Shown: positions 1 through 34,168 of the stretch, piece after piece
Layout of the letters: the number at the start of each line of letters is the position of its first letter
Position numbering within the stretch: the first letter of the stretch is position 1
Origin: an uncultured Clostridia bacterium
GTDB taxonomy: Bacteria; Bacillota; Clostridia; Oscillospirales; Acutalibacteraceae
Assembly (NCBI GenBank): GCA_905235625.1
Contig: CAJOLX010000008.1
Coordinates: 1 to 64,000 of the forward strand
DNA length: 64,000 nucleotides
Reading direction: 5' to 3'
Translations under genes and position numbers: made by a program
The notes under the pieces: generated by a model
Databases searched by the model: none
Seen by the model: the letters and a program-made list of their open reading frames with translations, nothing else
What the model was told of the DNA's origin: nothing

Positions 1-1623
1 GGTGAGCGCGTATCCGGGGTTGGGAGCAAGCTGGCTCTCGGTCGGGAATGCGATCGCTTCGCCTTCAAGGCCGGTCTGACTGCCTACGCTCGAGCCTCTG
101 TCCATAAAGGTGATGGTGTATTGCTGTGAGAATTTAGCAACGTAGTTAACAGCGGTGGAAGCAACCACGGGGAAGTTAACTATAGTCTGAGTTGCGTCTG
201 TGCTGTCATACCAGCCTGCGAACACTGCGCCCGCCTGAGTCGGGCTGGTCGCAGGAGCGGTGATGTTGGCGCCTACCTGAACGTTCTGAGTGTCATAGGT
301 AGCTCCGTTAGCGGTGAACGTAGCGGTGATGCCCCAAACAGCATAAACGTTTACGTCGCCCTGGGAAGCGTCAACGGAAGTAACGGCGTTGCCGTTTGAG
401 TCAGCCCAGCCGAGGAAGTTAAAGCCCGCCTTTGAGGTGGTAACGGAAGAAATATCAACCGTGCCGGTCTGGTTGGCTATGGTGAGATTGGTGAGCTGAG
501 TAGTGCCGTCATAGAAGTTAACCGAATTGCCTGCCTGAGGAGCAGAGTCGTCGGCTATAACGAAAATGTGGTTAGTATCTGCTGTAAGAAGGTTTACATT
601 CTTGCCCTTGGCATCATCTCTTGCAGAGTAGACGTCCATAGTCATGTCTCCGCCTTCGGAAACCAACTCAAACTTCTGCTGTGCCTGAGTTCTTATAGGT
701 TTGTTATAATTTTCGTCCATTCCTATGTATCCGATGGCTCCGTCTTCAACATAGTTAACTGTTCCGGGACCGCCCTGATAAGGCTCAGCGGTAGTATTAA
801 CCGATATTATATGCTGCCAAGTATATTCGTCATTTCCATAGAATGAAACGCCCGGTTCTATCTCGTTATCTCCCAAATAACCGATATTCCACTGCATCTG
901 AGTAGCATCCCACGAATAAGTCTGACCGGCATCTAAACCCATGGCAGTAAGGTTTGCTGGGGTATAAAATGACGTTTTGTTCATTGTTGTCGCTCTGCCC
1001 CTGTTGATATCGACACCGATGGTCATGTCATCGTCAAGAGTTGTTTCAAAATTTATGAAAGGACCGTTTCGATTCAACATTCCGGTTCTGTCGTTCGCAA
1101 GGTTTTTAGCGGAAAAACTGTTGTTCAAACCATCTGCAGGATAAAGAGCATGATTATAATCAATCGAAGCATTATAAGTCGAATTGACATCGGGTTGTAC
1201 ATTGAAAAACTTACGAGTAAAGAATGTGAATTGGTTAAGTGAAACCAAAAGTTCGTTTGACTTTACATAGTTACGAACAAGAAGTCTGTCGCCGGGCTGA
1301 ACTTTATGGTCGGTATCAACCCAGTAGCTGCCCAATGCTTCAAAAGCACCGGGAGTGCCGGCTTCAACTTCTTCAAATACCTGAACGGCAAAATAAAGAT
1401 AAGGATATACATCGTTACCATATTCCGCATCAAGTTCAGCGTATGTTTTAACGTTATTGTTTTGGCTTGCTGTATAATCTGTGTATGTCTTATCCCAATC
1501 GTCTGCGTTGTGCTCATAACCGTCAACCGAACCGGCAAAGCTCACCGTGGTAAGGCAGGAAAACATTCCCAGAACCATCAGCACTGCCATAAAAGCGCTC
1601 AAAACTCGCTTAAAATTTGACAT
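1..1623 (-). CDS. Secreted InlB-repeat (Listeria-Bacteroides repeat) protein, C-terminus cut by window edge
   Basis: This open frame is absent from the ORF track because its stop lies outside the window; I translated it by hand and found 541 codons without a stop. The ATG has a strong ribosome site (aggaggtag) just upstream. The N-terminus is a classical signal peptide (basic MSNFKR, hydrophobic core, cleavage probably after VSFA). Residues about 40-350 are rich in Asn, Asp and aromatics and resemble no family I can name, though a stretch near residues 90-130 (QPGDRLLVR) has the look of a cohesin-like beta-sandwich. From about 365 to the edge there are at least three repeats of the Flg_new/InlB B type, recognised by FLGWADSNG, FAGWYDS and VYAVWG. 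Such repeats occur in surface or secreted adhesin-like proteins. It follows the dockerin gene on the same strand after 82 bp. The missing end could carry an anchor or dockerin. Confidence 0.85.
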   Translation of the reverse strand, partial: MSNFKRVLSAFMAVLMVLGMFSCLTTVSFAGSVDGYEHNADDWDKTYTDYTASQNNNVKTYAELDAEYGNDVYPYLYFAVQVFEEVEAGTPGAFEALGSYWVDTDHKVQPGDRLLVRNYVKSNELLVSLNQFTFFTRKFFNVQPDVNSTYNASIDYNHALYPADGLNNSFSAKNLANDRTGMLNRNGPFINFETTLDDDMTIGVDINRGRATTMNKTSFYTPANLTAMGLDAGQTYSWDATQMQWNIGYLGDNEIEPGVSFYGNDEYTWQHIISVNTTAEPYQGGPGTVNYVEDGAIGYIGMDENYNKPIRTQAQQKFELVSEGGDMTMDVYSARDDAKGKNVNLLTADTNHIFVIADDSAPQAGNSVNFYDGTTQLTNLTIANQTGTVDISSVTTSKAGFNFLGWADSNGNAVTSVDASQGDVNVYAVWGITATFTANGATYDTQNVQVGANITAPATSPTQAGAVFAGWYDSTDATQTIVNFPVVASTAVNYVAKFSQQYTITFMDRGSSVGSQTGLEGEAIAFPTESQLAPNPGYALT

Positions 1624-1657
1624 CTGATTTTCTACCTCCTTATGGTAGTTATTTTCA

Positions 1658-1684
1658 TTCGGCGGGCGGGTTGCGCCCGCCGAA
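1658..1684 (-). other. GC-rich hairpin between the dockerin gene and the InlB-repeat gene
   Basis: TTCGGCGGGCG pairs with CCGCCCGCCGAA, a stem of about 11 bp with a small loop. On the coding (minus) strand the T-run comes before the stem rather than after it, so this is not a textbook intrinsic terminator. It could stabilise an mRNA 3' end or cause partial termination between the two genes. Confidence 0.55.
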
Positions 1685-1705
1685 AAAATCAAACTTTAAA
1701 TGCTC

Positions 1706-4700
1706 TTACTCAACATATAAGTCACCGTAAGCCTGGTCTAACAAGTAATATGACTTATAGATACGATTTGCAAAGTTAATGTCGGTATTGTCATAGCCTT
1801 CATCACCGTTCAAATCGGTTGCAGGTAACAGGATGCTTTCAGGCTGGTCAGGATCATCATAAAGGTATCCGGTTCTGAATTTCATCGCATTACGCAGCCT
1901 GTTGATATCATTCATATCCAAGCTTCCGTCGCCGTTCAAATCTCCTCTCAGAGCAAGAACATAAGCGTCCTGAACTTCTCCGTTTTCATCAAGAAGAACA
2001 ACTATTGAGCCGGAGCTCGCAGCATCGCCGTAAGGAATGACATAAGCTTCGCCACCTTCAATGTAGAAGAGCTCGGCAATCATTTCTTCGTCGGCATAAG
2101 CGGGTATACCGAAAACTGTGCCGCTGACGGGAATGTAATCAAACTCATCGGTGTAAACTTCCTCAATACCATAATCCATAAGGAATGCATCATCGATTAT
2201 CGGATTATAAATCTCGCCGTTGTAACCTTCGCACTCGTAGGATTCATCGAGCTCGAAGTAGAAGTCGGTATCTTCGCCGCCTTCGCCTGCTTCAACAAGG
2301 CCGTTGAACGCCTCCTGAAGAGCTGCGATCATGTCGTCAACGATGGACTGCTGGCTCTCCGAAAGCTCTGCGGCTTCGTTCATGTTGTAAGCTCTGTCAT
2401 AAACCTCAAGAAGGTTCATGAAGGATGCCGTGGTGTAGGTATCCTGATACTGGCCGCCTTCAAAGTCGGCAGAACCGTCGAAGTTAATGCCGAAGCCGAA
2501 GTCGCCGAGGAAGGCGCTCACTTCGTTTATCGCATCGGCGAGGAACGTGTAGTCTGCGCCTGCGGCAAGATGCTTCCAGGTGTAAACAAGCTCGTTAAGA
2601 GCCTTGGTGATCTGCTCGCCGTTGGTTGAGCCTACGGTGCTGTTTGCAAATGCAACTGCGTCCGAATAAGGCGCGAAGGTTACGGCAGAGTAGTTGGCAG
2701 CGTTTTGGCCGCCGAACGTGGTAAGAGCGTCAACAAGCTTGCTGTCATTGCCGGGCAGCTCAATCAGTCTGCTTGAAGTAAGTCTGAGCATGTGCTCTGC
2801 ATAAGCATAGTCAACGGAGCTGATAACCGAAGGCTCATCGTTAAGATATGCCTCCACTACCTTCTCTTTAGCCTCGGTTGAGAGCTCATTGAACTCTTCC
2901 TCGGTGTAGCCGATATACTTATACTCTCTGTTAATCAGGCTGTTTGCGTGGTTAATGGCGCTCTTTGCGGTTATGTAGGTGTGAGCAACATAGTTTCTCA
3001 TGCCCATGTAGCCGTATTCGGCGTCATTATAATCAAGGTAATCCTTATAATAGAGGGTCGTGCCTGCATAATTGAAGGACTGACGCGTGTAATTATAAGG
3101 CTGAATCTGGTTCACAAGGTTCCAGAGACCCTCGGCGCCCGAAGACTTAAGGTAAGGCTTAAGGGCTTCATTAGCCGCATAAAGCGCTCTGTAAAGCTCG
3201 AGATACTTGTTCTCTGCGGTGCTCGAGGCGATGAAATTCTCAAAGCCGTTTGCACGAGTGCCGGGCAGATAGCCGTGGCTGTCGGGAGCGTAAGTGAACA
3301 CAACAGCGTTTTGAATAGCGGTGCTGTAGTTATTGAATGCGGTAGCGCCCGCGGCAATTACGCTGTCATTTGAATAGTTGGCAGAGATTGCTCTGTTAAG
3401 ATAGGATTCAAGGCCGTAATCATCGTAAAGATGGATGTAAACTTCGATAGTTCCGGTTTCGCCGCCGGCGCTGATGCCGATTCTTGCAACGTAAACACCG
3501 TTGCCGACGTTGGTAACGCCGCTTTCTACGATGGCGGACTGCTTAATTCTCATGCCCCACTCGTCAAGAACGTAGCTGTCGTCTTCATCCTTCTGATACT
3601 CATACTGAGTTCTGGTGTAGGAATCGGAGTCAACAGCGAAGGGATAAAGAATGTAAGTGCCCTCTTCACCGGAAAGCGAGACCTGAGTTTCGGAAGTGTC
3701 GGTCTCTTTGCTGAGCCAGCCGGTAACCGAGCCGGAGGTAAGAGCCGCGCTCGTAATGGAAGCGGAGCCCGCGGTCTTATTATCCTTAATCTGGATGGAG
3801 TAGCCGTCAACGGAGGAAAGACCCTTGCCGCCGTTCAGATAAATGTTGGGAGCGTAGGTGATGGTCTTGCCGCCTATCGTTGTGGAGGCAATGGCTTCGC
3901 CGTCGCCTCTCTTGGTAGAATCGGAAGCAACGTAAGTGTATCTGGTGCTCGAAAGAGTTGAGCCGATAGACTGTCCGTTTTCATCCAATACGTCGTAGGT
4001 TATTTCAAACTTAAGGGTCTGGCCCGTCGTAACGTTGCCGAGAGTGACCGTAACAGGCTCACTGCCGACGATCGTGGAGTTGGAAATACCGGAAACAGAG
4101 CTCTGGTTGCCGCCGCCGCCGATGGGAACGGAGGTTGCGGTTCTGATAGCGTAGTTGTAAAGATTATCTATCTTTCTCTTATAGTTATCGTTCTTGTCTC
4201 TGTAGCTGGTGTTAACGCCCGAGGAGCCGTTGTAAATCTGGAACGAAGCGCTGGTGCCTTCGGGAATAAGAAGAGAGGGAAGGTAATTTTCCATCTCGCC
4301 GAATTCCTGCTTGCTGTCAAGACCGAGAATCTTGCAGACGATGGGAAGCGCAACGCCCGCTATAATCTTGCCTCTGGCGACGATCTGGGTGTTGTTGGTC
4401 TGACCTGTAACGTCTCTTGTTGCGGAAATGCTGTGAAGCAGGTCGGAAACCATCTTACCGAGAAGCTCGTTGTTGAGCACGTCGTCAATATGAATGACGG
4501 TTGCGTCAAACACGTTCGGGAAGAGAAGATTGAAAATATTGCGAAGGGTGTCAAGCAGAACTCTCTCAAGGTCGTATCTGCCGAGAACACCGGTTGAGCT
4601 TCTTTCAAATATATCGTAGATATTTGTCCAGTCGCAGTTAAGGATGGGATATACAAGGTAATCAAATATAATAGCTTTGATTACATATGTATTTATGGAA

Positions 4701-6868
4701 ATGCCGTCGCTGAGCCACGAATCGGTGCCCTTAATGGGGATGAGGCTGTTGACAATGGCGTCAATATCTGCCCACGCGGTGTCTTCGGTAACTTTGCCGG
4801 GGCCGTAATCGCCGCCGTAGTTATCGCTCGCGAGGTCAATATTGAGCAGGCACTGATAAACGCTGCTGTTGCCGACGGTGGTCGACGCCCATGTGGTGAC
4901 GCCCCATGCCGCAAGAGCCGCAACGGTGTTGCCGTAAGGGCGGTTTTCGCCGAGATAAGCGAGAAGGCCGGTATTGTTGGTGCTGCCGTTGTTGGTAGTG
5001 CTGTATGTGCTGTCGCTTGCCGAAGCTTTCTCCGCGTCAACGCCCGCGTTGATGTTGTAAACCGCGATATCCATAAGGATAGCGAGGGCTTTGTTGAGAG
5101 CCGCCGCGGAATAATCCGCAAAGTTGTTGTAAGCTCCGGCGTTGGGAACGGTGTAGGTGAACTGAGGAATGTCCTCATAAGCGAGCTGAACTACAGCCTC
5201 AAGAGCTGCGCCGGGAACGGTCCTGGTGTTGGTGTTCTCGGGGATATACATGTAGTCAACGCTGGCGTTGACAACGCTCCTGATGATGTAAGAAAGCAGC
5301 TCCTGAGCGTTCATCGTTTCAAGCTCCGCAGGGTATTTATACTCGTGTCTGTCGATAATGGTTCTTGAGAAGAACTCTTCTTCGGTGACCTGAAGTATAA
5401 ATCTGAGCACATTGATTATGTTGTCAAACAGATAATCGTTGGTGCCTGTGGTAAGGTCGAACGAATAGGATATTTCGGCATTTTCGGGATCGACCCAGTT
5501 GTAAGTGGTAACGGCGCCGTTTACAGATTTGCTGTCGTAAAGAAGAACTTTATCGACAAAATCAATGGCGTTGCGGTTGAGAGCCTGAATGAAGGTTTCG
5601 CCTGCGTTTACGGTAGCGTAGGGAACCTTGAGGTTGTCAACGTCGAATACCTTGAATATCTTGTCGCTCGCATCGATGCCGCCCGCGGGAGCGTCGCCCA
5701 TATAGAGGTAATCATAATCGGGATTCTCAACGGGCTCGTCGTTTGCGTCGCGGATAACGTCGCCGTTAGCGTCGCGAAGATATCTTTCGGTCTTGCTCTC
5801 GTCAAATTCGTAGCCGCTCTTCTCACGGAGCCATCTGAGCGTGATTCTGTTAAGCACGGGAACGGCAATGCCGTTGTATGCCTGGAGAAGAAGTGACTCT
5901 ACGAGATCATAAACAGTGCCGAGGTTGCTGAAGTCCACCTTGGTGTAGGACGGAGCGGGAGCGGCGGCATTGTTGGCAACTCTTATAGCGTCGCCGAGGC
6001 CGAAGGTTACCCACTCGTCGGGATGCACCCAGCCGTAATAGTCGTAAGCCGCAGTGTTGGGAGTTTCGTCGGTAACGACCGCGCCGGAAGCGCTGCCTAC
6101 GTGGAAAATATATTCGTCATAGACAACGTGCGAACCCTTATTCGTTGAGGAATAGAAGAGATCGTCAAGCTTTACCCATTCGCCGAGCAAGAGGTTGTTA
6201 ACGAGATCCTGCAGGAAAACTATTGTGGGTGAACGGTCACCGTCCGGCTGTTTATATCTGGCGGGGATTTCTTTTGAATCAAAATAGTCGTAGTCGTCGT
6301 CAACGCCGAGACCCGTAAGCTGGCACAAAAGGCCGAAAACAAGCTCTCTGACGTTGAACTTGTAAGCAGCGATTACAGAATCCAGAATACCGAGACTGAG
6401 GTTGCCGTTTACGTAGAGCTGAGCTATGGGAGCAAGGTCTCCCAAAAGGTCAAGCACGTCGTAAAAGACTTGAGTGTCGGATCCGTTTGATCTGGCAGTG
6501 CTTTGAATGGCGCTGAGATTGAGGTTCTCAGCGTCACCGAGAAGTGACTTTAAGCTGCCGGCTGCGCCCCAGGCGGAGTTAATGCTGGCAACTGCATCGT
6601 CAACGCTCTTGAGTGAGATGGTGCCGAGAACGGGCACGTCAAAAGCGAGGTCCGCTTCGTCGAGCATTCTGTCGACCTCATCAAGAGCCATGGTTGCGTA
6701 TTGCTCTGTTGTGTAAACGGCCGAGTTCACGTCGTCGAAGTTAAGCGTGGAGATAACAGAGGAATCGTTGCCTCTGTAGCTCGCCTTCGCAAAGCCGAGA
6801 ACGGACATGCAGCTCATGGTCATTACAACCGCAAGGATTAGGGAAATAATACGCAAAGGTTTTTTCAT
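1706..6868 (-). CDS. Giant secreted protein with C-terminal type I dockerin
   Basis: 1720 aa. The signal peptide is MKKPLRIISL plus a hydrophobic core, cleaving near GFAKA. The last 80 or so residues form a type I dockerin: two calcium-loop helices, DLNGDGSLDMND and DLNGDEGYDNTD, each followed by a helix. Dockerins bind cohesin modules in cellulosome-like scaffolds. The preceding 1600 residues match no catalytic family I recognise. They are mostly helical-looking with many Asn/Tyr-rich segments, a Gly/Ser/Thr-rich linker near residue 890-920, and a beta-rich section about 920-1150. An acidic segment (GEGGEDTDF) precedes the dockerin. The ATG has the site aggaggtat. A consensus promoter lies about 250 bp upstream, leaving a long GC-rich leader. 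The role is probably extracellular or surface assembly; the substrate is unknown. Confidence 0.9.
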   Translation of the reverse strand: MKKPLRIISLILAVVMTMSCMSVLGFAKASYRGNDSSVISTLNFDDVNSAVYTTEQYATMALDEVDRMLDEADLAFDVPVLGTISLKSVDDAVASINSAWGAAGSLKSLLGDAENLNLSAIQSTARSNGSDTQVFYDVLDLLGDLAPIAQLYVNGNLSLGILDSVIAAYKFNVRELVFGLLCQLTGLGVDDDYDYFDSKEIPARYKQPDGDRSPTIVFLQDLVNNLLLGEWVKLDDLFYSSTNKGSHVVYDEYIFHVGSASGAVVTDETPNTAAYDYYGWVHPDEWVTFGLGDAIRVANNAAAPAPSYTKVDFSNLGTVYDLVESLLLQAYNGIAVPVLNRITLRWLREKSGYEFDESKTERYLRDANGDVIRDANDEPVENPDYDYLYMGDAPAGGIDASDKIFKVFDVDNLKVPYATVNAGETFIQALNRNAIDFVDKVLLYDSKSVNGAVTTYNWVDPENAEISYSFDLTTGTNDYLFDNIINVLRFILQVTEEEFFSRTIIDRHEYKYPAELETMNAQELLSYIIRSVVNASVDYMYIPENTNTRTVPGAALEAVVQLAYEDIPQFTYTVPNAGAYNNFADYSAAALNKALAILMDIAVYNINAGVDAEKASASDSTYSTTNNGSTNNTGLLAYLGENRPYGNTVAALAAWGVTTWASTTVGNSSVYQCLLNIDLASDNYGGDYGPGKVTEDTAWADIDAIVNSLIPIKGTDSWLSDGISINTYVIKAIIFDYLVYPILNCDWTNIYDIFERSSTGVLGRYDLERVLLDTLRNIFNLLFPNVFDATVIHIDDVLNNELLGKMVSDLLHSISATRDVTGQTNNTQIVARGKIIAGVALPIVCKILGLDSKQEFGEMENYLPSLLIPEGTSASFQIYNGSSGVNTSYRDKNDNYKRKIDNLYNYAIRTATSVPIGGGGNQSSVSGISNSTIVGSEPVTVTLGNVTTGQTLKFEITYDVLDENGQSIGSTLSSTRYTYVASDSTKRGDGEAIASTTIGGKTITYAPNIYLNGGKGLSSVDGYSIQIKDNKTAGSASITSAALTSGSVTGWLSKETDTSETQVSLSGEEGTYILYPFAVDSDSYTRTQYEYQKDEDDSYVLDEWGMRIKQSAIVESGVTNVGNGVYVARIGISAGGETGTIEVYIHLYDDYGLESYLNRAISANYSNDSVIAAGATAFNNYSTAIQNAVVFTYAPDSHGYLPGTRANGFENFIASSTAENKYLELYRALYAANEALKPYLKSSGAEGLWNLVNQIQPYNYTRQSFNYAGTTLYYKDYLDYNDAEYGYMGMRNYVAHTYITAKSAINHANSLINREYKYIGYTEEEFNELSTEAKEKVVEAYLNDEPSVISSVDYAYAEHMLRLTSSRLIELPGNDSKLVDALTTFGGQNAANYSAVTFAPYSDAVAFANSTVGSTNGEQITKALNELVYTWKHLAAGADYTFLADAINEVSAFLGDFGFGINFDGSADFEGGQYQDTYTTASFMNLLEVYDRAYNMNEAAELSESQQSIVDDMIAALQEAFNGLVEAGEGGEDTDFYFELDESYECEGYNGEIYNPIIDDAFLMDYGIEEVYTDEFDYIPVSGTVFGIPAYADEEMIAELFYIEGGEAYVIPYGDAASSGSIVVLLDENGEVQDAYVLALRGDLNGDGSLDMNDINRLRNAMKFRTGYLYDDPDQPESILLPATDLNGDEGYDNTDINFANRIYKSYYLLDQAYGDLYVE

Positions 6869-7112
6869 GCGATGTTATACCTCCTGTCAAGAAAGATACA
6901 TTATGGGATGCGCAAGGCCGAACGGTTGCCCGGAACGCAGCTTTAGGATGCGCGCCCGGGACTGCGCCTCGCGGGCCTCCCAACTGCCCGCCGGCGCGCC
7001 GCCCGCCGCTCAACCCGGCTGAACGACACAATGCCAACCATGCAAAGCATCCTTCCGCGAGCTTTGAGAAAATGCCTTTAGGGGGCACTTCGCCCATAGC
7101 CCGCTTATGTTC
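6869..7112 (-). promoter_or_regulatory. Long GC-rich 5' leader of the dockerin gene (possible structured RNA)
   Basis: The segment between the inferred transcription start and the ribosome site is about 240 nt. Its central part (about 6905-7020) is far richer in G and C than flanking DNA, with self-complementary pieces such as GGCGCGCC and GGGCGAAGTGCCC. The track ORF here (6741-7163) is dismissed: it overlaps the dockerin start and has low-complexity content. I do not recognise a known riboswitch consensus. It could be a structured cis-regulatory RNA or only a stable leader. Confidence 0.4.
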
Positions 7113-7118
7113 ATTGAA

Positions 7119-7148
7119 ATTATAACTAATAAAAGCAAGCAGTGTCAA
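7119..7148 (-). promoter_or_regulatory. Consensus sigma-A promoter for the dockerin gene
   Basis: On the minus strand, TTGACA (7143-7148), an 18-bp spacer and TATAAT (7119-7124). Both hexamers are perfect matches to consensus, so strong transcription is expected. Confidence 0.8.
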
Positions 7149-7618: not shown

Positions 7619-9796
7619 TTACAGAGTTCTGAAATAGAGCTTGAACGAGTCTCCGTCCATTCTGCCGTATTTATTGAGGCAGAGTCCCGCGTTCATCAGC
7701 AGCGCTCCGGAATAAACCTCGCCGCTCTCATCCTCCACGTAATATTTCTCGGGGTCGAGGCCCTTGAGCTTGAGATAAAAATTGTTTTCTTCCTGCTTTC
7801 TCATCACAACGCTCGTGACGAGAGCCGAGTTTTTATCCTCCGAAACGAACATCCACGCCGCTCTGAAATGGTTTTTGTCGGGAGTTATGAGCCTGTAAAG
7901 CTCGCCCTCGTGAATAAGAGCGTAATATTTGTGATATTCGTTGACCTGATTTTTAACGATTTCGACCTCTTCGGGCGTGAAGGTGTTCGGGTCGAGCTCA
8001 TAGCCGAAGGTGCCCCAGAGAGCTATGTTGCCTTTGGTTTCATACCCTGCGCGCCTGCTGTCGGAAACGTGAGCGCCCATTGTGGAAGCGGGGTAGCAAA
8101 GCGAGGTGCCGAACTGAATGCTCAGGCGCTCTATCGGGTCGGTGTTGTCGCTGCACCATATCTGAGGCTCATAGTAGAGCATGCCGGGGTCGTATCTGCC
8201 GCCGCCGCTCGCGCAGCCTTCAAGCAGCAAATCGGGAAAATCGGACGTCAGCCTGCCGAGAACATCGTAAACTCCGAGCACGTAGCGATGGAAGGTTTCC
8301 TTCTGACGCTCTTTCGGCAGAGCGGCGCTGCCCACCTCGGAAAGATAGCGGTTGCAGTCCCATTTAACGTAAGCGATGTTGTTTTCGGCGATTATGCCGC
8401 GCATTAAGCCGTAGATGTAATCCCGCACGTCTTCGCGGCTGAAATCGAGCACGTATTGATGCCTCGCGATGCTCTTCTCTCTGCCCGGCACGTGAATGCA
8501 CCAATCGGGGTGAGCTCTGTAAAGGTCGCTGTCTCTTGACACCATTTCGGGCTCGAACCAGATGCCGAATTTAATGCCTAGGTCGTTTATCCTCTTTACG
8601 AAATCGCCGAGCGGGCCGCCGAGCTTGTTTTCGTTAACGAACCAGTCGCCGAGGGCGGTTTTGTCGCTGTCTCTGTTGCCGAACCAGCCGTCGTCCATAA
8701 CGAGCATATCTATGCCGAGCTCCTTCGCTCTCTCGGCGAAGGTGACGAGCTGATCTCCGGTGAAATCCATGCCGGTAGCTTCCCAGTTGTTTATGAGCAG
8801 CGGGCGCTTTACATGAGCCCATTTGCTCCTGATAAGGTGCTTTGAATACAGCTTGTGGAAAACGCGGCTCATGCCGCCTATGCCCTCGTTTGAATAGACC
8901 GTCACCGCTTCGGGAGCGACAAATTCGCCGCCGGGCTCAAGAGTCCATTCAAAGCCTTCGGGGTTAATGCCCATAACGGTTCTTACGCCTCCGAAGGGCT
9001 CAACCTCGGCGTCAAAAACGAAGTTTCCGCTGTAAACGAGGTTAAATCCGTAAGCCGAGCCGTAATCCTCGTTTGCTTCTCTGTCAACGAGAGCGGCAAA
9101 GGGGTTGTGATGATGGCTCGAGGAGCCTCTCTTGCTCGATATTCCCTGCGTAAGATGAGCGAGAGGCGATCTTTCAACGCTTCTCTCTTTGCTCCACTTG
9201 CCGTAAAGGGTGATGAGGTCGTAATCGTGCGTGTCGTAATCAACGCAGCAGCTCATTATTCTCTCAAGATAAACCGTTTTGTCGGTGGGATTTATCACCT
9301 TAACGCCTCTTGCCATCGCGCCGCAGTCGTTAAACACAGTGTAGTAAAGCACCGCTTCAATGCCGGTGACGGAATCTCTGACCGTAACCTCGAGAGTGTC
9401 CGCCTGAGAGGGGTCGGTAACGAAAAGGGCGGGCATGCCCTTTAGGGAAGGCTTGCCGGGGTAAATTTTGTGAGAAACGTAGCGCATATCGGTCACGTTG
9501 TTGCCGTCGGCGTTTCTGACCGCTATGCAGGAATTTCTGAAATCTCCCGAGCCTTCGCCCGAAAACTCAAGAGGAGTGACGTCGGGCGAAAAGCTGCCTT
9601 CGCCTATCTTGAAGTTGCACGGGCTCTCCGAAACGAACATGCCTTTATCTCTGAACATGCCTACGTTATTGTCGGGAATATAAGCGCCGTAATAGAGATG
9701 AACGAGGTAGCCCTCGTCAAAAATCTCGAAAACGTAGCTTGAAGCCGCAGAGTCGAGCTTGAATATTTTTTTCTCGCTGTCGTAGTTAATGGGCAT
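7619..9796 (-). CDS. Alpha-galactosidase, GH36
   Basis: 725 aa, the normal length for bacterial GH36 enzymes that remove terminal alpha-1,6-galactose from melibiose, raffinose, stachyose or galactomannan side chains. Layout: N-terminal beta-supersandwich (about 1-320), a TIM barrel opening with LLINNWEATG, and a C-terminal beta domain. The nucleophile motif KWDCNRYLSE is near residue 477 and the acid/base motif CSDNTDPIERL near 547; GCASGGGRYDPG lies between them. There is no signal peptide, so it is cytoplasmic and would act on imported oligosaccharides. The start ATG is preceded by aaggaga. It is monocistronic, with its own terminator and no transporter nearby. The exact substrate cannot be read from sequence. 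Confidence 0.96.
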   Translation of the reverse strand: MPINYDSEKKIFKLDSAASSYVFEIFDEGYLVHLYYGAYIPDNNVGMFRDKGMFVSESPCNFKIGEGSFSPDVTPLEFSGEGSGDFRNSCIAVRNADGNNVTDMRYVSHKIYPGKPSLKGMPALFVTDPSQADTLEVTVRDSVTGIEAVLYYTVFNDCGAMARGVKVINPTDKTVYLERIMSCCVDYDTHDYDLITLYGKWSKERSVERSPLAHLTQGISSKRGSSSHHHNPFAALVDREANEDYGSAYGFNLVYSGNFVFDAEVEPFGGVRTVMGINPEGFEWTLEPGGEFVAPEAVTVYSNEGIGGMSRVFHKLYSKHLIRSKWAHVKRPLLINNWEATGMDFTGDQLVTFAERAKELGIDMLVMDDGWFGNRDSDKTALGDWFVNENKLGGPLGDFVKRINDLGIKFGIWFEPEMVSRDSDLYRAHPDWCIHVPGREKSIARHQYVLDFSREDVRDYIYGLMRGIIAENNIAYVKWDCNRYLSEVGSAALPKERQKETFHRYVLGVYDVLGRLTSDFPDLLLEGCASGGGRYDPGMLYYEPQIWCSDNTDPIERLSIQFGTSLCYPASTMGAHVSDSRRAGYETKGNIALWGTFGYELDPNTFTPEEVEIVKNQVNEYHKYYALIHEGELYRLITPDKNHFRAAWMFVSEDKNSALVTSVVMRKQEENNFYLKLKGLDPEKYYVEDESGEVYSGALLMNAGLCLNKYGRMDGDSFKLYFRTL

Positions 9797-34045: not shown

Positions 34046-34052
34046 AGAAACG

Positions 34053-34147
34053 CCTTATTTCTCGGCAAATGCCGCAGGATTTGGCACCTTGATTAACACA
34101 GGTTGCCGGGCTTCACAGGGCCTGTCCCTCAGCCGCTCTTAATAAGG
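34053..34147 (-). promoter_or_regulatory. SAM-I (S-box) riboswitch aptamer upstream of metK
   Basis: Minus strand: the P1 arms CCTTATT / AATAAGG bracket the conserved core. The S-box landmarks are all present: AAGAG..GGCTGAGGGA, CAGGCCCTGTGAAGCCCGGCAACC (split here for length), AAGGTGCCAAATCCTGC. SAM binding favours the adjacent terminator. The controlled operon is metK, GT2, CofE-like. Confidence 0.96.
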
Positions 34148-34168
34148 ATTTTATTAAGTTCGCTTGAT

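Follow-up and report, generated by a model that had tools for sequence, protein, structure and literature searches.

Two neighbouring genes at one end of the Clostridia DNA analysed here (hereafter the window, a stretch of 64,000 nucleotides) encode a giant dockerin protein and a protein with InlB-type repeats behind a cohesin-like N-terminus, and they raise the question of whether their products form a single surface assembly and, if so, whether that assembly is a cellulosome. Few known protein couplings are as strong as the cohesin-dockerin bond, which, to our knowledge, has been studied almost only in enzyme complexes. The reading that we favor, and regard as probable though well short of certain, is that the two genes specify a lineage-specific, non-cellulosomal cohesin-dockerin surface assembly, expressed as one transcription unit and probably adhesive.

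The dockerin gene lies upstream and the partner gene downstream, both on the minus strand. The dockerin gene and the regions of its product are:

1706..6868, minus strand: gene for the secreted 1720-aa dockerin protein (open reading frame; orthologs in most genomes of the genus)
6788..6868, minus strand: signal peptide, residues 1-27, read directly as MKKPLRIISLILAVVMTMSCMSVLGFA
4259..6733, minus strand: large N-terminal region, mostly helical, residues 46-870 (AlphaFold2 model; without known fold)
3419..4081, minus strand: middle region, residues 930-1150, probably beta-rich, with approximate boundaries judged from sequence and alignment
2279..2491, minus strand: FIVAR-like helical repeat, about residues 1460-1530 (PF07554 in homologs)
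1949..2146, minus strand: putative X-like module before the dockerin, about residues 1575-1640 (ortholog alignment)
1775..1945, minus strand: type I dockerin with two calcium loops, residues 1642-1698 (PF00404, 28.1 bits)

The first-pass annotation of this DNA had credited the 1720-aa protein with a type I dockerin and no catalytic domain, and both statements are borne out. A type I dockerin is defined here by D/N ligands at positions 1, 3, 5, 9 and 12 of each of two calcium loops, and direct reading of the two loops, DLNGDGSLDMND and DLNGDEGYDNTD, reveals both intact, each with the full ligand set. Pfam Dockerin_1 scores just below its cut-off of 22.9 bits against the whole protein (22.2 bits, E 1.6e-4), and above it both against the C-terminal part (PF00404, 24.0 bits) and in the family search of the genome, which returned the 28.1 bits listed above. 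Loop 1 is recognizable in 20/20 aligned orthologs, and loop 2 is degenerate in two of these. The X-like module carries a motif conserved in the ortholog alignment (GTG..V..D..Y.V..RGD). Of 25 homologous C-terminal halves, 18 contain a match to the FIVAR family PF07554 (best E 3.4e-12), which is not listed for the window's own protein at E ≤ 1. Neither Pfam nor NCBIfam yields a catalytic family anywhere in the protein. An AlphaFold2 model of residues 28-915, built with 21 orthologs, is confident and mostly helical (mean pLDDT 79, pTM 0.73), and a Foldseek search of this model against the PDB returned no fold match (best E 2.5); because that comparison covered solved folds and not predicted cellular structures, the fold may already exist, yet unsolved.

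The partner gene comprises the following features:

1..1623, minus strand: cohesin-like/InlB partner gene, 541 aa present, cut by the contig end (open reading frame, match on contig C25, synteny)
574..1401, minus strand: cohesin-like beta-sandwich domain, residues about 75-350 counted from the ATG (model, Foldseek, profile comparisons)
1..450, minus strand: InlB/List_Bact (Flg_new) repeats, running on past the contig (PF09479, E 8.2e-12)

Its start is the ATG at 1623 (MSNFKR...), located 82 nt after the stop codon of the dockerin gene and preceded by a perfect ribosome site, AAGGAGGT; an alternative start at TTG 1692 was rejected in favor of this ATG. The combination of a signal peptide with PF09479 repeats identifies the product as an InlB-repeat surface protein, as had been proposed. 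Contig C8 ends at base 1 of the window, in a draft genome of 2.06 Mb and 93 contigs, and the partner protein is therefore incomplete. Its other half is very probably encoded at the end of contig C25, where an open frame of 1270 aa contains 10 further PF09479 stretches and aligns to residues 611-1900 of the nearest full-length relative (1901 aa), the window part aligning to residues 3-555 of the same protein and both parts at 48-49% identity; the join is unproven because the ends do not overlap, with about 55 residues missing. Orthologous partners are about 1700-2235 aa in length. In many relatives (e.g. L058, L060, L061, L063, L065, L068), contigs of different assemblies end 84-202 aa into the partner gene, ahead of the repeats, and these early breaks perhaps reflect strain variation and not repeats alone.

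Whether the N-terminal domain of the partner is a cohesin was addressed by structure and by sequence profile. A model of residues 1-377 based on an alignment of 17 sequences reached medium confidence (mean pLDDT 63, with core blocks at 80-93), and its best Foldseek match in the PDB is the R. flavefaciens ScaC cohesin (5lxv_A, E 1.2e-5, probability 1.00), the two top ScaC matches having E 1.2e-5 and 1.5e-5, both at probability 1.00. Ranks 1-20 consist entirely of cohesin entries or cohesin-containing structures, with integrins next, and TM-scores against cohesins, normalized to the target, are about 0.5. The medium-confidence model is thus that of a cohesin-type beta-sandwich, and the same modelling and Foldseek pipeline gave no fold match for the helical region, so that it has no default bias to cohesins. 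In profile comparisons with hhalign, from which signal peptides and two anchored homologs common to both alignments had been removed, the domain aligns with N-domains from giant dockerin adaptors elsewhere in the genus (98.3%, E 1.8e-14) and, at lower significance, with the genuine cohesins of the genus (E 4e-4, 34.8% probability, a score twice the best of 40 shuffles). The adaptor N-domains match those genuine cohesins at E 2e-4. Each of these three comparisons was set against 40 column-shuffled controls, none of which gave an E below 0.099; anchored proteins match genuine genus cohesins at E 1.3e-5 (two of them) to 1.6e-6, values given without shuffle control.

Curated models and sequence databases return less. 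PF00963 has no match in the genome at E ≤ 10, anchored homologs in two relatives (G008 and G018) exceed its cut-off only with neighbouring stretches summed and are not listed by hmmscan, and neither the partner nor the adaptor N-domain profile retrieved a convincing relative in sequence searches of the PDB. Given the Foldseek matches, the profile comparisons and the blank PF00963 result, we regard the domain as well supported as cohesin-type in fold, and its homology to cohesins as moderately supported by the profiles. The cohesin resemblance suggested on first pass accordingly stands as a predicted fold, and finds no counterpart in a PF00963 match. Absence of cohesins from the genome together with a non-cohesin model, the outcome that would have told against that suggestion, is not what emerged: cohesins are the best PDB matches of the model, and the absence holds only for the curated Pfam model, a protein on contig C82 having the same kind of domain.

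That C82 protein is InlB-type, and its cohesin-like N-domain matches profile A5 at E 6.2e-24. It is the counterpart of an anchored cohesin-like protein which, in the closest relative compared, follows the dockerin protein and the partner and ends in SLIPDTG, a hydrophobic stretch and RRKKED. The C82 protein itself has an anchor motif of the LPXTG/sortase type (IPDTG; E 0.0033, below the curated cut-off), a sortase is encoded in the genome, and no cell-wall anchor was seen in either window protein. A protein on contig C45 is a third, weak, candidate for a cohesin-like protein. Many other matches of the A2 and A5 profiles in the genome were discarded as signal-peptide matches, since they mostly covered the first ~50 profile positions. 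A search for further dockerin genes found one, located on contig C47; its product has 1803 aa and a similar N-terminus.

Across the 24 loci of relatives that were read for long open frames, giant proteins of roughly 1400-3600 aa recur that combine a cohesin-like N-domain with InlB repeats, and most of those with their end present carry a C-terminal dockerin; in the two giant adaptors sampled, the families matched are InlB, MucBP and dockerin, and none is an enzyme domain. Where related proteins lack a dockerin, they terminate in an LPXTG-like sequence (IPDTG, VPATG or IPQTG). Adaptor genes may be missing from the window's assembly rather than absent from the genome, and the component list may be incomplete, because this is a draft assembly and repeat-rich genes break, as they do in many relatives too. 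In a different locus type of the genus, dockerin proteins of ~1700-1860 aa lie beside small single-cohesin proteins (L126 9951-17507, L138 5638-12526); a phage-type lysozyme domain is present in one of these two dockerin proteins, a plant-polysaccharide hydrolase in neither.

The distance between the partner domain and genuine cohesins invites the explanation that this domain, although cohesin-related, has lost dockerin binding and works directly as an adhesin or a carbohydrate-binding module, the dockerin serving another partner or being a leftover. Its weak sequence similarity to genuine cohesins would fit, as would its large insertions (cores of 240-324 aa in partner-type N-domains versus 98-132 aa in genuine cohesins). 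Yet both dockerin loops are recognizable in nearly all aligned orthologs, the adjacency of the two genes is kept across the genus (see below), and cohesin-like domains recur together with dockerins on the giant adaptors, all of which speaks against this explanation, which we consider unlikely.

A second explanation is a reduced ordinary cellulosome, in which the pair is a scaffold for dockerin-bearing plant-cell-wall enzymes that were lost or were missed in the draft. Among 45 genomes of the genus, 14 have genuine cohesins above cut-off and 43 have dockerins, which is compatible with it. It is nevertheless very improbable: this 100%-complete genome has two dockerins only, each on a giant protein that has no known enzyme domain, and no PF00963 cohesins; the two adaptors sampled elsewhere carry InlB, MucBP and dockerin matches only; and the two other sampled dockerin proteins are without plant-polysaccharide hydrolase, one having instead the phage-type lysozyme domain. 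An adjoining GH36 alpha-galactosidase, encoded upstream of the pair (7619-9796, minus strand) and kept there in one part of the genus, has no dockerin. The first-pass annotation had envisaged a scaffold either for adhesion or for holding enzymes; adhesion fits better, because the genome's only two dockerins sit on proteins without known enzyme domains.

The favored reading, a non-cellulosomal assembly, also rests on how the pair is conserved. The 1720-aa protein was matched in 31 of 60 relatives searched, a set that took in 36 of the same genus, and all 31 fall within the genus; in an even sample of the order it was matched in 2/149 genera. A scan of 84,980 species genomes recovered 39 loci, most of them titled as goat, sheep, water buffalo, yak, horse or rumen isolates. 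In 33 loci the downstream sequence is 330 nt or longer, and in 29 of them the partner lies directly behind the dockerin gene on the same strand; these 33 loci are not fully independent, a few near-identical species being among them. With three distant relatives set aside, 30 loci of the lineage are testable and 29 of them keep the two genes adjacent; the thirtieth, with 353 nt downstream, is probably too short to show the partner. The three distant relatives, which make up the other exceptions, have an inserted gene for a ~390-455-aa protein behind the dockerin gene, followed by one for another giant protein; the inserted proteins have a cohesin-like N-domain, with a weak dockerin match in two of the three, and the N-terminus of the giant protein also reads cohesin-like, these N-terminal readings having been made by eye with a moderate profile match.

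Three elements on the minus strand bear on the expression of the pair:

7119..7148, minus strand: predicted sigma-70-type promoter before the pair, TTGACA-18-TATAAT (12/12 consensus matches)
6869..7118, minus strand: predicted structured 5' leader of the dockerin gene, about 250 nt (without Rfam match)
1658..1684, minus strand: 11-bp stem-loop between the two genes, without T-run (orthologous gaps)

The promoter is predicted 250 nt upstream of the dockerin gene, and sequences of the type TTGAC...TAT(A)T occupy the same place in most orthologs. The leader has a 97-nt core with a conserved GCGCCGGAT...GGCGT..C.GGCGC hairpin, in which some pairs are altered on both sides, and a AAGGAGGT motif. 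This core was found in 19 other genomes of the genus, only upstream of the dockerin gene, once in most and twice in one genome. No Rfam family matched the window's leader, nor did an RNA model built on half the genus. A sub-threshold match to U4 on the other strand of the leader was taken as chance. Elsewhere in the window, a SAM riboswitch occupies 34052-34148 on the minus strand (RF00162, 84.8 bits).

Between the two genes, a hairpin of 9-16 bp is present in 28 of 29 orthologous gaps, as judged with shuffle controls per gap, its position kept while its sequence differs; one gap (L163) has two candidates. In the cip-cel operon of Clostridium cellulolyticum, selective RNA processing involves a stem-loop at the 3' end of the upstream cistron (PMC4423207). 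A stem-loop following the upstream cistron is likewise seen here, in sequence alone, in those 28 gaps, although the window, unlike the cip-cel operon, has two cistrons only; by analogy, the hairpin may set unequal amounts of the two proteins. That the genes are chance neighbours encoding two unrelated surface proteins, as the many giant InlB-type surface proteins in these genomes might suggest, is the least probable explanation of all, given that order and strand are kept in all but one of the 30 testable loci of this lineage, and a hairpin in 28 of 29 gaps.

In the assembly that we favor, the two genes would be co-transcribed and would supply, as secreted proteins, a dockerin half and a cohesin-like half, the partner exposing a cohesin-type domain at its N-terminus, carried by a stalk of InlB repeats, with Ig-like domains at the C-terminus. 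The C-terminal dockerin of the 1720-aa protein would dock on the cohesin-like domain of the partner or of the anchored C82 protein, and docking would display the helical region at the cell surface as the functional end, most likely to attach the cell to a surface such as feed fibre, mucus or other cells. The observations behind this model are the dockerin, the predicted cohesin-type fold, the conserved adjacency, the anchored cohesin-like protein and the sortase; from them we infer that the dockerin and the cohesin-like module bind each other, and the assignment of particular cohesins to particular dockerins is putative. A more elaborate version, which we put forward tentatively and think less likely to be true than false, is that the lineage builds enzyme-free surface fibres, in which giant proteins with a cohesin-like N-domain, an InlB stalk and a C-terminal dockerin would be joined head to tail, with an LPXTG-type anchored cohesin-like protein at the wall and the helical domain as cap or ligand-binding tip.

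Within the literature searched, no InlB-dockerin system was found. The pair shares parts with several known systems. With cellulosomes, such as those of R. flavefaciens (ScaC cohesin 5lxv) and Clostridium thermocellum, it shares the cohesin-type fold and the two-loop type I dockerin, and related genomes add anchored and adaptor-like components; unlike cellulosomes, the window's genome has no recognizable dockerin-bearing enzymes and no Pfam-recognizable cohesin, and the cohesin-like domain, which is enlarged, occurs only once, N-terminal to an InlB stalk. The fold matches of the partner N-domain include the cohesin-like module PDB 2jh2, a non-cellulosomal cohesin from Clostridium perfringens. 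C. perfringens also has FIVAR-dockerin modules, resembling the FIVAR-like repeat near the C-terminal dockerin here, and its cohesin and FIVAR-dockerin modules sit on glycosidases, whereas no enzyme domain is recognizable in the present pair. Proteins with internalin B-type (Flg_new) repeats have comparable PF09479/PF18998 repeat stalks and, as in the C82 homolog, an LPXTG-type anchor; in contrast to internalins, a leucine-rich head is not matched and the head is cohesin-like.

The locus thus brings to light an enlarged cohesin-like family missed by the curated model and a large helical domain without a solved fold match. With its two defined modules, the putative operon makes one case of a cohesin role outside cellulosomes directly testable. 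If the favored reading is true, cohesin-dockerin coupling would also serve as a general surface architecture in gut bacteria.
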